Source: Candidatus Hodarchaeota archaeon
GTDB lineage: Archaea; Asgardarchaeota; Heimdallarchaeia; Hodarchaeales; Hodarchaeaceae
Assembly: GCA_016840035.1 (NCBI GenBank)
Contig: JAEOTC010000194.1
Coordinates: 1 to 43,828, forward strand
Reading direction: 5' to 3'
Length of the DNA stretch: 43,828 bases
Shown here: positions 3,688 through 37,265 of the stretch, piece after piece
Numbering within the stretch: position 1 is the stretch's first letter
How the letters are laid out: each line of letters starts with the position of its first letter
Notes under the pieces: model-generated
The model's database searches: none
Told to the model about the DNA's origin: nothing
Seen by the model: the letters and a program-made list of their open reading frames with translations, nothing else
Position numbers and translations under genes: made by a program

Positions 3688-4941
3688 ATGCGAAAAACTA
3701 TACCAGCTCAACCACAACTAACGATCCGCATGCAGATGACGCCGCGGCCTATCTTCACAGATCTTTGTATCTGTGCCAAGAATTTGTATAATCGCGCGAC
3801 CTTTGAGGTCCGACAGGAATTCTTTAACACCGGGAAATGGATTCAATACACCGTCCTTTATCATCGGCTCAAACAGGAACCCGTGTACCTTGCACTTAAA
3901 GAACTTCCAGATAGTTATTTGCCACAACAGGTTCTCCGGCAAATTGAACAGACCTGGTGAAGCTACTTCGCCGCAATAAGAGCCTGGAAAAAAAAGCCCA
4001 CGAAGTTTCGCGCCCGTCCACATCTTCCACGATATAAACCAAAAAATAGCCTGCATATGCTCAATTTTCCACGGCCACGAGTGCGAATTCGAAATAATGT
4101 CATTTTATTTGCTAAAAATCTCATGGCGCGTGGATTTCCCGCCTTTCCTGTGGGAACGCTTCCCGTAACGGCCAACACATGTGTAGGAGCACGCTTGCTT
4201 CCTTATTATGATCGATTTGTGATAGAAATCCTATATGAGGTGCAGGTGAGGCCCATTCTGGTTTCTAAAAAACCTTCTCGTACGCTGGGTATTGATCTAG
4301 GGATTTCCAATCTCGTAGCTACGTCAGACGGAGTTCTCGTCAAAGGCGGGGTTGTAAAAACCATCAATCAATGGTATAATAAGCGCTTAGCCCATTATCG
4401 GTCTTTAGCTGCTACCTGTAATTCCTCAGTAATCACTCCTCGAATCCTTCGATTACATCGTAAACGAATGAATAAACTGTACGACTTCTTTCATCAGACC
4501 TCCCGCCGTCTGATTTCCCATTGCATGGCTCAAAATATCGACACCCTTGTTATTGGTTATATACCAAGGTGGAAACAACACTGCAACCTCGGTAAACAGA
4601 CAAACCAAGCATTTGTCCAGCTACCCTTCGCTAAGCTCATTCAAATGCTTGAATATAAAGCTAAACTCGTTGGAATAACAGTTATATGTGTAAATGAATC
4701 GTATACCTCCCAAAAGTGTAACAAATGTGGGCATACGGAGAAAAACAATCGGGTTTCTCGGGGTGTGTTTATTTGCCAGAAGTGTGGAGTGCATCTCAAT
4801 GCTGATATCAATGCGGCGTGTAATATTTGCGCTCGCTCTCAAATTCTCTCTCAAGTAGTCCCAATGGATAGTAATAGGGCTGTTCCTACTATCCTGTCGG
4901 ATAGTGGATGTGTGACTCATCCTTTCCAGAATTCTTTTTAA
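3688..4941 (+). pseudogene. tnpB: TnpB RNA-guided nuclease gene with one in-frame TGA stop
   Basis: A single reading frame runs from ATG 3688 to TAA 4941 (about 417 codons, normal TnpB length) and is broken only by TGA at 3958-3960. The stop falls in the conserved stretch around EQTW*SYFAAIRAWKK; an Arg or Lys codon is expected there, and CGA to TGA is one transition. After the stop the RuvC parts look intact: GIDLGISNL (first Asp), VNESYTSQ (Glu), a four-Cys zinc ribbon beginning CNKCGH, and NADINAACN (last Asp). TnpB cuts DNA guided by an RNA from the element's right end. An internal ATG at 4057 could yield a 294-residue C-terminal fragment. A sequencing error or recoding would restore it. 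Confidence 0.85.
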
Positions 4942-17073: not shown

Positions 17074-17610
17074 GTGTCGTTAAATTTTAACTTTCTCGCT
17101 AAGATATTACTTCTTGGGGAATTTCGTGTTGGAAAATCTTCTATGGTGCTTCGGTACGTGGAAGACCGGTTTCCAGGCGATTATATGGCAACCATTGGTG
17201 CAAACTTTTTGGTTAAATCCGTGAATTTATCTTTGAACGGAGAACCAGTTAGAGTTGGATTACAAATTTGGGATTTAGGTGGTCATACTAGATCTACCCA
17301 AGTAGGACGTGTCTTTTTCCAAGGAGTGTCTGGTGCTTTACTTGTATATGATTTGACCCGTCCTGATACATTGGATAAAATTCCACTATGGCAAGACCAA
17401 CTCAAAAAATACTCCCCAACTGCAAAATTATATCTAGTCGGAAATAAGAATGATCTAATCGATGAACGACAAATTTCCACCTCTGAGGGACAAAAAGCAC
17501 AGGGAACATTCAAAGTTGAGCATTTTTTTGAGACATCAGCGAAAACTGGTGATCATATTCAGGAAACTTTTGAACACATGGCAGTATCTCTTATTGAGTT
17601 AAACCAGTAG
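17074..17610 (+). CDS. Ras-like small GTPase with Gln-to-His in switch II
   Basis: The 178-residue protein carries GEFRVGKS (15-22), switch-I Thr40 in ATIGANF, WDLGGH (66-71), NKND (124-127) and TSAK (154-157). The usual catalytic Gln after the DxxG motif (Gln61 in Ras) is His71 here, and the preceding Ala is Gly. In Ras such a change lowers intrinsic hydrolysis, though some natural GTPases use His there. No C-terminal cysteine or lipidation signal is present. The start is GTG, preceded by GGATATGA. It is the second GTPase in the window and a clear paralogue of the one at 12200-12751. Confidence 0.92.
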   Translation: MSLNFNFLAKILLLGEFRVGKSSMVLRYVEDRFPGDYMATIGANFLVKSVNLSLNGEPVRVGLQIWDLGGHTRSTQVGRVFFQGVSGALLVYDLTRPDTLDKIPLWQDQLKKYSPTAKLYLVGNKNDLIDERQISTSEGQKAQGTFKVEHFFETSAKTGDHIQETFEHMAVSLIELNQ

Positions 17611-29060: not shown

Positions 29061-29339
29061 TTATTTCTTTGCAATGGTGATTTCAATAGCACTGACATTC
29101 GATAGATTACCCTCACGAGTTTCTATCTGTTCTGTATCAATTTTAATATCTGTAACATCAACGAGATCTTTCATGAATCTCCGCCTTAAAACCTCTGCAA
29201 CGTCTACTGCTCGGCTTATAGCTCTTCCTCGGGCTTTTAAAACTATAGTTTCAGCATTCCGATTGAATTGTGTTACACAAGCCATAACATAGGCAGTTAC
29301 AGGTTTGTTTCCGATAAAAACTGTATTTTCCTCTGACAA
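29061..29339 (-). CDS. alba: Alba chromatin protein
   Basis: The 92-residue protein has the Alba pattern from [15 protein letters not shown] to the central [20 protein letters not shown] and the strand-rich C-terminus. Alba dimers bind DNA or RNA and coat chromatin in many archaea. In the Sulfolobus protein the motif is GKKPV and the first Lys can be acetylated; here it is GNKPV, so that Lys is Asn. The start is TTG at 29339 with AAGGAG about 11 bp upstream, and a weak TATA-like CAATATAC further up. It stands alone in a 280-bp and a 184-bp flanking gap. Confidence 0.93.
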
Positions 29340-33632: not shown

Positions 33633-33733
33633 TTCACTTCTTATGTGTGTTATCTAACAATTTATGTTAGTCACCAGTAAACTCATAAAATAAAACTCAG
33701 ACAATAGATTATAGACCTGATCTTTGATAAGTG

Positions 33734-34594
33734 ATGAAGATGACTCTTGAAATTAAGGTTGATGATTTAGATTTATTTACAAAAGTTCTTAATGCAACAG
33801 CTACTGTATTAGAGGATGAAGGAACTTTTGTAGTTAATCCCAAAGAAGGAATGACACTTAGAAATATGGATAAGCCAAGATTTGCGATGGTAGATTTGAA
33901 AATTAAGCCTGAATATTTTCATGGCGATTTTAAATGTGATAAAGAATATAAAATCTCCATCCAAATGCAGGATCTGAAGAAAATTTTACAGAGGGGTGGA
34001 AAAGAGGATAGTTTAGTGATAACTCTTGATGAGGGAAAAAATCTTCTGAATTTTACTTTTGAAGGTCGTGTTAAGCGACAATTTATTCTTCCATTGTCAG
34101 AACCAGAGGAAAGCACTCTCCCCGATCCCAGTGCACTCAAGTACGATATCAAGGCTGTATTATTTAGTGGTTCATTAACTGATTTTATTAAGGATGCTTC
34201 AATTATTGGCGGAAGCATAAATTTGTATGCAGAATCAAACAAAATGATTTTCAGCAGCTCTCAAGACAATCGGGAGGTTAGAATTGAAATTGATGCGCAA
34301 TCAGAAAATTCTGCGGCTAAATTAATCGAAGCAGAGGGAACTCATGAAGCGTTATATTCGATTGACTCATTTAAAAATTTAATATTAGTGGATCAAGCTT
34401 TTTCAGAGGTTCAACTAACATTTACCTCTGTAAGACCATTGCATTTACTATATACTGATGCTCGAGGCATTGATCTTGGCTACCTACTTGCTCCTATGCA
34501 ACCTGATCTTGATGATGAACTTGAAGGTGCATCCTCGGAAAATGAATACGACGACGATGAGTATGACGATGAATACGACGATGAAGAAGATTAA
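33734..34594 (+). CDS. pcn: PCNA sliding clamp with long acidic C-terminal tail
   Basis: The clamp ring fold is clear: TLEIKVDDLDLFTKVLNA at the N-terminus, NMDKPRFAMVDL and the interdomain connector region, and YLLAPM where most PCNAs nearly end. The protein then runs on for roughly 30 residues of mostly Asp, Glu and Tyr with repeating DDEYDDE. That is an unusual extension, and the DNA shows a matching near-tandem repeat. The start is one of GTG 33731, ATG 33734 or ATG 33740 behind GATAAGTGATG; 33734 is used here. PCNA tethers polymerase and other factors to DNA. RFC subunits follow directly. Confidence 0.95.
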   Translation: MKMTLEIKVDDLDLFTKVLNATATVLEDEGTFVVNPKEGMTLRNMDKPRFAMVDLKIKPEYFHGDFKCDKEYKISIQMQDLKKILQRGGKEDSLVITLDEGKNLLNFTFEGRVKRQFILPLSEPEESTLPDPSALKYDIKAVLFSGSLTDFIKDASIIGGSINLYAESNKMIFSSSQDNREVRIEIDAQSENSAAKLIEAEGTHEALYSIDSFKNLILVDQAFSEVQLTFTSVRPLHLLYTDARGIDLGYLLAPMQPDLDDELEGASSENEYDDDEYDDEYDDEED

Positions 34595-34649
34595 TTCGTT
34601 GTATACTCCCCTAATATTTCTTGACTTTCATAGACGTTTGTGATCAATA

Positions 34650-35630
34650 GTGGTTACTACAGAACGAATGTGGACGGAGTATTTTCGTCCTAAAACTCTA
34701 GATGACGTGGTTGGCCAACAAGAAATCGTTGACAGATTAAAGCAACTTGTAACCCAAGCAGATTTTCCTCATATGTTATTTTCTGGCCCCCCAGGAGTAG
34801 GAAAAACTACTTCTGCGGAAGCGGTGATAAATGAAGTTTTTTCTCTTGCTCAACGTGCTGCAAACGTGAAACGTCTGAATGCATCAGACGATCGTGGTAT
34901 AAATGTTGTCCGTGAGGATATTAAGAATTTTGCTCGTGTATTACCCTCAGGAGGAGCAAAATTTAAACTAATAATTCTAGACGAAGCTGATCAAATGACT
35001 AGTGAAGCTCAACATGCTTTACGTCGAACCATGGAAACTTATAATGAAATTACGCGTTTCATTCTTATTTGTAACTATAGTTCGAAAATTATATCCCCAA
35101 TTCAATCTAGATGCGCAATATTTCGATTTAAAGGATTACAGAAAGACGAAGTTATTTCACGCTTGAAATTCATCGCTTCAAACAAGAAATTAAAGATCGA
35201 TAAAGGAGGGTTAGAATCTCTATATAAGAGTTCAGAGGGGGATATGAGACAAGCAATCAATGCATTACAGGCTGCAGCATCCTTGACGAAGGATGTAACT
35301 GATAAAGTTGTATATCAAGTACAAGGTTACATTAAACCTGCTGAGTTAACTGACATTATCTTTAACTGTATCGGTCCAAAACCGAATTTCAGTGCTGCTC
35401 GAAAGAAAGTAGTCACTCTTATGGAATCTTATGGTCTCTCAGGGCAGGATCTGGTAAAGCAATTTAATAGTCAATTGAGTACAATAGCCGAGGAAGATCT
35501 TCCTGGTCATCTCCGATACGAGGCTTTAGCTATGCTTTCTGATGTCGATTATCGCTTAGTATCGGGGTGTAATCCTCTTGTTCAGTTTGATGCTTTTCTT
35601 GCAAAATTAATTGCACTCGCTCAAAGCTGA
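34650..35630 (+). CDS. rfcS: replication factor C small subunit
   Basis: The clamp-loader ATPase loads PCNA onto primed DNA. The 326-residue protein has the RFC box TEYFRPKTLDDVVGQ, Walker A GPPGVGKTT (46-54), Walker B LIILDEAD (107-114), the SRC arginine finger (153-155) and the LNASDDRGI signature. Length is typical. The start is GTG at 34650, 55 bp after the PCNA stop. The operon continues to the large subunit after 12 bp. Intron-like insertions or inteins, common in some archaeal RFC genes, are absent. Confidence 0.97.
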   Translation: MVTTERMWTEYFRPKTLDDVVGQQEIVDRLKQLVTQADFPHMLFSGPPGVGKTTSAEAVINEVFSLAQRAANVKRLNASDDRGINVVREDIKNFARVLPSGGAKFKLIILDEADQMTSEAQHALRRTMETYNEITRFILICNYSSKIISPIQSRCAIFRFKGLQKDEVISRLKFIASNKKLKIDKGGLESLYKSSEGDMRQAINALQAAASLTKDVTDKVVYQVQGYIKPAELTDIIFNCIGPKPNFSAARKKVVTLMESYGLSGQDLVKQFNSQLSTIAEEDLPGHLRYEALAMLSDVDYRLVSGCNPLVQFDAFLAKLIALAQS

Positions 35631-35642
35631 GGTGTTTATCTC

Positions 35643-37265
35643 TTGGTATCTTGGACGCACAAATACGCGCCCCAAAATCGATCAGAAGTTGTTGGTAATA
35701 ATACAAGTGTTAATTCAATAATTGGTTATTTAAATCGATTTAGAAATATTAAATTAAGAACCAAGAGTTCTAAAAATGCTTTACTTCTTTTTGGCCCACC
35801 AGGTATTGGAAAAACAAGTTCAGTACTAGCAATTGCAAAATCTCTTAATTTTGACGTAGTAATTGTTAACGCGAGTGATAAACGAAACAAATCATCCCTT
35901 CAAATGGTGAAAAATGCTTCCCAATTTAGTTCTTTAAAAGAAAGCCTAAATGATAAAATCATTGGTCAAATTCTACTTATAGATGAAGTTGATGGTCTGA
36001 GTGGGACGGCTGATCGGGGTGGGATTCGGGAAATCGTCGAAATTATAAAATCAACTCGAATACCAATAATTCTTACTGCTAATGATATTTCAAATCAAAA
36101 ATTCAAGACTCTAAAATCATACTGTGAACTTAGTAGATTTGACTCCCCAGAGGATAGTGAAATTCTAAAAATCCTAAAGAGAATTTCAGCGGCAGAATCT
36201 ATCACGGTTACAGATAAAGTTCTCCGATCTCTTATAGAATTTAGCAATCACGATATACGTGGCTCAATAAATTCTTTACAGACACTTTCGGGTGGAAAAA
36301 AGGAGATTACTAAGGAAGATCTCTCCGTTCTTTCTGTTAGAGATCAATCTGTTGATATCCGTGAATTCCTAAGGAGTATCTTTATTGAACGGGATGGGGA
36401 AAAAGCATACCGTCAAACACGTGTATTAGCAGATGTGGATTATAACAAATTACTTTTAATTTTAAGAGATGTAACGGCAAGAACTATTGGACAAGAAGAT
36501 TTTGAGCGATTATCGGATGTATACGCATTATTAGCGAAAGCAGATTTGGCTTTAACTCGAGCTTCACGGCAAAGAGTTTGGTCTCAACTTTATTACTATT
36601 ATTTTCATGTGACGAAAGGATTGACGGCTCTTCTTCCTGAGATTGACTATTTACCTCCGTTTCAGGACTGGCAACTACAAGTGCCCCAATTTTGGATAAC
36701 ACTCTCTAGGCAGAGAAGAGGGAAAAATATTGCGCTAAAAGTAGGAAAATCATGTTTAGTGTCCGCTCGCGTTGCTATCAGTGATATATTCCCCTACCTT
36801 AGAATTATATTTAATAAAGACGCTGAAATGGCATCTGATCTATCAATTGAATTTAAATTGTTTGATATTGAAGCTGGTAAACGGAAGACAAAGATTGTTT
36901 GGAATAAAGAAATTGATTATTTTGCGAAAGATAAGGCCATCAATAAAGAGATAAAAATGCTAATACGCAAAAAATTTCCTCTTATTGAAAAAGTACAGAC
37001 ACAAGATATAGATGAAAAGGTTTTACAAGAGGCAAAGGAACAGCAGGCCACGTTAAAAAAATCACATGAGGCTAAAGCATCCGTTCCTAAAAAATCAAAG
37101 CGCTCTACAAAATCAACGAAAAAACCAAAGCGAAAAAAGAAAATCGCGATTGAAGCCTCATCTGTCAAACCAAAGAAGTCTAAGAAGGACGAAAAATCCA
37201 GTAAATCTAAGAACAAAGGTAAAAAACCAAAAAAGGCACCAAAAACTCTTGCAGAATTTTTCTAG
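35643..37265 (+). CDS. rfcL: replication factor C large subunit with lysine-rich tail and PIP-like end
   Basis: The 540-residue subunit has Walker A GPPGIGKTS (51-59), Walker B ending LLIDEVDGLS (112-120) and the NASDKR sensor segment. The C-terminal region (about residues 455-540) is an extended lysine-rich, low-complexity tail with KKSKRSTKSTKKPKR and SVKPKKSKK blocks. It ends in KTLAEFF, a PIP-box-like motif without the usual Gln, which would bind PCNA. The start is TTG 35643 with GAGGTG upstream. It forms one operon with rfcS and probably pcn. The tail is probably unstructured and may also bind DNA. Confidence 0.96.
   Translation: MVSWTHKYAPQNRSEVVGNNTSVNSIIGYLNRFRNIKLRTKSSKNALLLFGPPGIGKTSSVLAIAKSLNFDVVIVNASDKRNKSSLQMVKNASQFSSLKESLNDKIIGQILLIDEVDGLSGTADRGGIREIVEIIKSTRIPIILTANDISNQKFKTLKSYCELSRFDSPEDSEILKILKRISAAESITVTDKVLRSLIEFSNHDIRGSINSLQTLSGGKKEITKEDLSVLSVRDQSVDIREFLRSIFIERDGEKAYRQTRVLADVDYNKLLLILRDVTARTIGQEDFERLSDVYALLAKADLALTRASRQRVWSQLYYYYFHVTKGLTALLPEIDYLPPFQDWQLQVPQFWITLSRQRRGKNIALKVGKSCLVSARVAISDIFPYLRIIFNKDAEMASDLSIEFKLFDIEAGKRKTKIVWNKEIDYFAKDKAINKEIKMLIRKKFPLIEKVQTQDIDEKVLQEAKEQQATLKKSHEAKASVPKKSKRSTKSTKKPKRKKKIAIEASSVKPKKSKKDEKSSKSKNKGKKPKKAPKTLAEFF

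Follow-up and report, generated by a model that had tools for sequence, protein, structure and literature searches.

A conserved acidic-aromatic tail on the sliding clamp of a Hodarchaeal genus and its possible relation to histones

The locus described here raises the question of why the sliding clamp, a very conserved protein, should carry a long acidic tail in a Hodarchaeal archaeon, and what the partner of this tail might be. The window (the whole stretch of 43,828 nucleotides that was analysed) belongs to an assembly of 4.3 Mb which is 87% complete, and the genus with which it is compared (g1) consists of Hodarchaeota/Heimdallarchaeota MAGs. The genes for PCNA, the RFC small subunit and RFC-L are consecutive in the window, all on the + strand, and form one cluster with the following features.

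33734..34594, + strand: gene for the sliding clamp PCNA, ATG start at 33734, product of 286 aa; PF00705 PCNA_N, E=1.5e-14
34496..34591, + strand: acidic-aromatic C-terminal tail of PCNA, residues 255-286; recognized by composition and genus conservation
34650..35630, + strand: gene for the small subunit of RFC, flanked by those for PCNA and RFC-L; PF00004 and PF08542 Rep_fac_C
35643..37265, + strand: RFC-L gene, 540 aa; PF00004 above cut-off, PF25361 RFC1-like lid just below it
36843..37262, + strand: RFC-L tail past the collar, about 140 aa, second half Lys-rich; net charge +27 over 140 residues
37242..37262, + strand: PIP-like end of RFC-L, KTLAEFF, canonical Gln absent; recognized by sequence

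Elsewhere in the window there are an IS605 OrfB / TnpB-like gene (4057-4941, + strand; PF07282 and PF01385) and two Ras-family small GTPases of PF00071 (12200-12751, - strand; 17074-17610, + strand), which are usual in Asgard genomes.

The clamp, its loader and their tails

The PCNA fold is confirmed by the sequence profile match to PF00705. Pfam PCNA_C gave no match at E<=0.001, but the C-terminal half still aligns with other Asgard PCNAs up to the AP end, and the alignment with these proteins runs from end to end. A profile of Asgard PCNAs that included the window protein matched 106 distinct solved sequences, and those listed are sliding clamps. An AlphaFold model of the PCNA monomer, for which close relatives were the only input, had a mean pLDDT of 36, was unusable over its whole length and was set aside. 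An alternative start, a GTG at 33731, lies three bases upstream of the ATG. As for RFC-L, its AAA+ module (PF00004, E=9.7e-14) carries an RFC-type lid, for which PF25361 scored 32.7 bits against a cut-off of 34.9, and an RFC-L match was found in 55 of 57 relatives at E<=0.001, some of the weak matches possibly being other AAA+ proteins.

A sequence-only reading of this DNA had proposed that PCNA extends about 30 residues past YLLAPM in an acidic, Tyr-containing stretch, and this proved accurate. After the core end YLLAP the protein continues as MQPDLDDELEGASSENEYDDDEYDDEYDDEED, that is, 32 residues with 19 D/E, no K/R and three Tyr placed 15, 10 and 6 residues from the end. Ten further genomes of the genus have a PCNA match, which makes 11 proteins with that of the window; in G004 the protein was not detected. 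Might the tail be absent in close relatives? It is kept in 11 of 11 PCNAs (31-42 residues, 19-29 of them acidic), at core identities down to about 58%. The sixth residue from the end is Tyr or Trp in all 11, and 10 of them have a second aromatic residue at position 15 or 16, counted in the same way. Tyr and Trp are interchanged among these proteins.

Between close relatives (three compared) the codon changes in the tail are mainly synonymous; for G000 and G002 there are 8 synonymous and 3 amino-acid-changing differences, two of the latter being D-E exchanges or aromatic swaps. As the codons are mixed (GAC/GAT, GAA/GAG, TAC/TAT), nucleotide slippage looks unlikely as the origin of the tail. When its pattern (two acidic residues, an aromatic residue or Cys, then four acidic residues) was sought at the DNA level in the 4.3 Mb assembly, the PCNA tail was the single match. 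The tail is neither a chance occurrence nor an annotation error. It is absent in f2, a family of the same order, whose PCNA ends shortly past AP. Whatever its partner, the tail has been added in a particular lineage to a protein that otherwise changes very little, and has been conserved there. Its composition suggests intrinsic disorder, and the window tail has the acidic stretch with aromatic anchors that is characteristic of APLF.

Similar compositions were observed in other genes of these genomes. Very small ORFs coding for nearly nothing but Lys followed by Glu/Asp with Trp occur in G010 (C1, around 924100, L191) and G006 (C1, around 274070, L192), e.g. MKPPKQTKKIIEEEEEEEDWDEEEWDDDEEE, and share a WDE-type motif with the PCNA tail; the one in G010 lies about 0.9 kb upstream of a histone gene. 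A pattern search for this Trp-rich ORF returned one exact match (G006), the G010 copy with two mismatches, and further matches with three. In G013, an ORF judged by eye to encode a MoxR-like AAA+ ATPase (L193) ends in EEEEYEEEEYEEEDYE, so that acidic-Tyr tails are not confined to PCNA.

The same reading had pointed to an RFC-L in the cluster with a Lys-rich tail ending in KTLAEFF, and it was right in this as well: the 70 residues that precede the last ten contain 28 K/R and 6 D/E (net +22), and the chain terminates in KAPKTLAEFF. Compared with the PIP box Qxx[LIM]xxFF, the hydrophobic and FF positions are there and Gln is absent; RFC-L ends of a similar kind occur elsewhere in the genus, e.g. 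KSLTDFF and KTLTDYF. Over 70 residues the tail charge has a mean of +17.8 in the genus, against +5.1 in the other families of the class sampled (Mann-Whitney p=7e-5, for samples that are not phylogenetically independent). The greater basicity of the genus tails could reflect charge matching with the PCNA tail. The PCNA gene of G010 (L065) is followed, within about 140 bases, by a run of 100 N; unrelated genes come next, and RFC-L was not found among the profile matches of this genome at E<=0.001; for these reasons the PCNA-RFC cluster of G010 may be broken or misassembled.

Pairing of the two tails across Asgard archaea

It had been suggested that what is unusual here is the pairing of an acidic clamp tail with a basic loader tail. 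Both tails are real, kept within the genus and encoded in one cluster. Lys-rich RFC-L tails with a PIP-like end, however, occur in much of the class and do not mark out this pairing. When a matching basic RFC-L tail was looked for across Asgard archaea with acidic PCNA tails, the two were found not to accompany each other in general. Seven families (f14, f15, f16, f17, f18, f19 and f20) have a PCNA with an acidic-aromatic end, which is short in f17-f19 and long in the other four, while their RFC-L stops at most 22 residues past its conserved core. Conversely, the RFC-L tail is clearly basic in f26, f29 and f8 (+14, +17 and +8, respectively), families which have no PCNA tail, their PCNAs ending in APRIEGSE, APRIEK or APRREAE; in f21, f23 and f24 the RFC-L tails are more weakly basic and the PCNA tail is absent. 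Family-level contrasts gave no relation of PCNA tail acidity to RFC-L tail charge (r=0.25, p=0.24) or to RFC-L tail length (r=-0.07). With counterexamples in both directions and null contrasts, a general pairing of the two tails is rejected as a rule. A local interaction between them within the genus is possible, and the comparative data do not single it out.

Long PCNA tails in which Phe takes the place of Tyr or Trp were also seen in other Asgard families, at L142 (G162), L136 (G158) and L085 (G080), e.g. RVDDDDDDFEEDFEPGDFDNTFDEEFEEDFN.

Tail acidity and histone number

Histones were counted as PF00808 matches at E<=1e-5, with doublets counted twice and genomes without a listed match set to 0 (this applies to G098, one of the f19 genomes). 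The genus genomes with PCNA have 2-10 histone-fold matches, against 0-3 in other families of the order and class; most of the f14-f20 genomes used have 3-8, f26 has 2-8, and 1-2 is the usual number elsewhere. Across 27 families, the median number of acidic residues in the tail follows the median histone number (Spearman rho=0.75, p=8e-6), also when genome size is given (r=0.60, p=0.001). Of nine families with a median of at least 4 histone matches, eight have at least 6 acidic residues plus an aromatic residue in the tail, and of the 18 other families none does.

Other variables were considered too. Tail acidity is positively related to genome size (rho=0.62) and to small-GTPase number (rho=0.68), and unrelated to the number of Alba, another chromatin protein (r=0.03). 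When genome size and RFC-L charge are entered beside histones in a regression, histones alone matter (p=0.003) and genome size drops out; upon adding a crude measure of small-GTPase expansion and Alba, histones hold at p=0.004.

Independent contrasts were computed on a tree of PCNA and RFC-L cores, which is built on two proteins, midpoint-rooted and has f3 misplaced. Pruned to families (23, one tip each), it gave r=0.71 between tail acidity and histones, with p=1.5e-4; as there were probably about two gains, p-values of this kind, which take the contrasts as independent, are too small. Leaving out f26 raised r to 0.83. Computed for 47 single genomes instead, the contrasts gave r=0.03 and nothing for any variable, and family medians were adopted only after this null result had been seen. 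We suspect that at the genome level the signal is swamped by near-zero branches within genera and by uneven histone counts in MAGs. The tree groups f14-f20, with the Hodarchaeal genus apart, and probably about two origins of the tail, one in the genus and one in the f14-f20 clade, lie behind the correlation.

There are cases which do not follow the trend. A true exception is f26, histone-rich and with a tailless main PCNA; f5 has short acidic PCNA ends and nearly no histones; and within the genus G005 and G010 have few histone matches, yet full PCNA tails. Some peculiar PCNAs were also observed. In the f26 genome G177, a second PCNA (L177:305-1249, + strand) contains a charged linker and ends in a C2H2 zinc finger, with PF00705, PF02747 and zf-C2H2 all above cut-off, and is thus a PCNA-zinc-finger fusion. 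The PCNAs of f4 (G016, G035 and G042; same class) are very divergent from the Asgard profile, with E-values of 1e-17 to 1e-36 against 1e-80 or better in the rest of the class, and histone and Alba matches are nearly absent from these genomes.

What the tail may do

A short acidic end is common among PCNAs, as in human PCNA (IEDEEGS). The solved PCNA chains listed share the same sliding-clamp core (Pfam PCNA_N, solved-PCNA profile) but reach at most about a dozen residues past the part matched, in contrast to the long acidic-aromatic tail found here. The explanation that we tentatively prefer, at somewhat less than even confidence, is by analogy: the tail would be a part of the clamp that is disordered, maintained by selection and able to bind histones, of the kind in which aromatic residues serve as anchors within an acidic stretch. 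Histone binding by the acidic domain of APLF, which is disordered, depends on anchoring Tyr, Phe and Trp residues (PMC9328677). Chz1 is another acidic disordered histone chaperone. The Hodarchaeal segment differs in being the clamp's own C-terminus, and its resemblance to both is one of composition.

On this basis we propose, still more tentatively, that in histone-rich Asgard archaea, Hodarchaeales included, the clamp acts as a replication-coupled histone chaperone that arose alongside the multiplication of histones in no fewer than two lineages. In PCNA the C-terminus is close to the side of the ring on which RFC and polymerases bind. A PCNA trimer would therefore present three polyanionic tails on the face where loader and polymerase dock, and these might collect histones at the fork. 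With their aromatic anchors, placed some 6 and 15 residues before the C-terminus, the tails would be able to shield the basic surface through which histone dimers bind DNA. Histones that the replication fork displaces, or that are delivered to it, could in this way be caught by the clamp, which might return them to the new DNA. The disorder, the histone binding, the ring geometry and the role at the fork are all four things that we infer.

Several other explanations need to be weighed against histone binding. It is plausible, if rather unlikely, that the tail works by undirected electrostatics, as a polyanionic brush which keeps the clamp from adhering to DNA or another clamp, or which folds onto the basic lumen, with no specific partner. 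Its high net charge and simple composition would fit this, as would the short acidic ends of f5 almost without histones and the acidic-Tyr tail on the unrelated AAA+ protein of G013; a brush, however, has no need for a fixed aromatic position or for Tyr-Trp exchange, and it leaves the histone link unexplained. Fixed aromatic anchors do suggest a specific partner, and this might be some other basic or aromatic-reading protein of the fork, such as a flap nuclease, a polymerase subunit, a ligase or Alba. Although an Alba gene is present in the window at 29061-29339, Alba number is unrelated to tail acidity, and we regard a partner of this sort as improbable.

The attraction between the two tails that was originally suggested, with the PIP-like end docking so that loader and clamp are tethered during loading or release, agrees with the common gene cluster and with the higher RFC-L tail charge of the genus. 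It is nevertheless quite unlikely in the light of f14-f20, which have acidic PCNA tails and no Lys-rich RFC-L tail, of the reverse situation in f8, f26 and f29, and of the family contrasts. Most improbable of all is a neutral or near-neutral extension through composition drift in larger genomes: tail acidity does track genome size, but genome size falls out of the model once histones are included, and the tail, with its fixed aromatic position and mainly synonymous change, is kept in every PCNA of the genus.

Known systems offer partial parallels to both proteins. Among the solved structures matched by the Asgard PCNA profile is PDB 1ISQ, which we take to be the Pyrococcus furiosus structure concerning the C-terminal PIP box of RFC-L. 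That archaeal RFC-L resembles the one described here in being an AAA+ protein with a basic linker and a terminal PIP-like motif; the difference is that in this genus Gln is absent and the linker has more Lys than is usual in the class. No earlier report of the PCNA tail was found in the literature searched, with subscription papers and preprints lying outside the search, so a prior description is possible; by title, papers on Asgard archaea, PCNA and replication factor C offered nothing on PCNA tails, and nothing relevant appeared on RFC-L charge clusters.

Eukaryotic PCNA handles histones indirectly, by recruiting CAF-1. The Hodarchaeal clamp would be similar in that histone deposition is coupled to it, but CAF-1 is a separate complex, whereas the histone-binding part proposed here is covalently in PCNA. 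To our knowledge, no archaeal replication-coupled histone chaperone has been established, nor was one evident among the paper titles found, and we know of no account of how histone-rich archaea keep their chromatin intact behind the replication fork. If the proposal is true, a clamp whose own tail handles histones would offer a simple precursor, open to testing, of the way in which eukaryotes connect PCNA with chromatin assembly.
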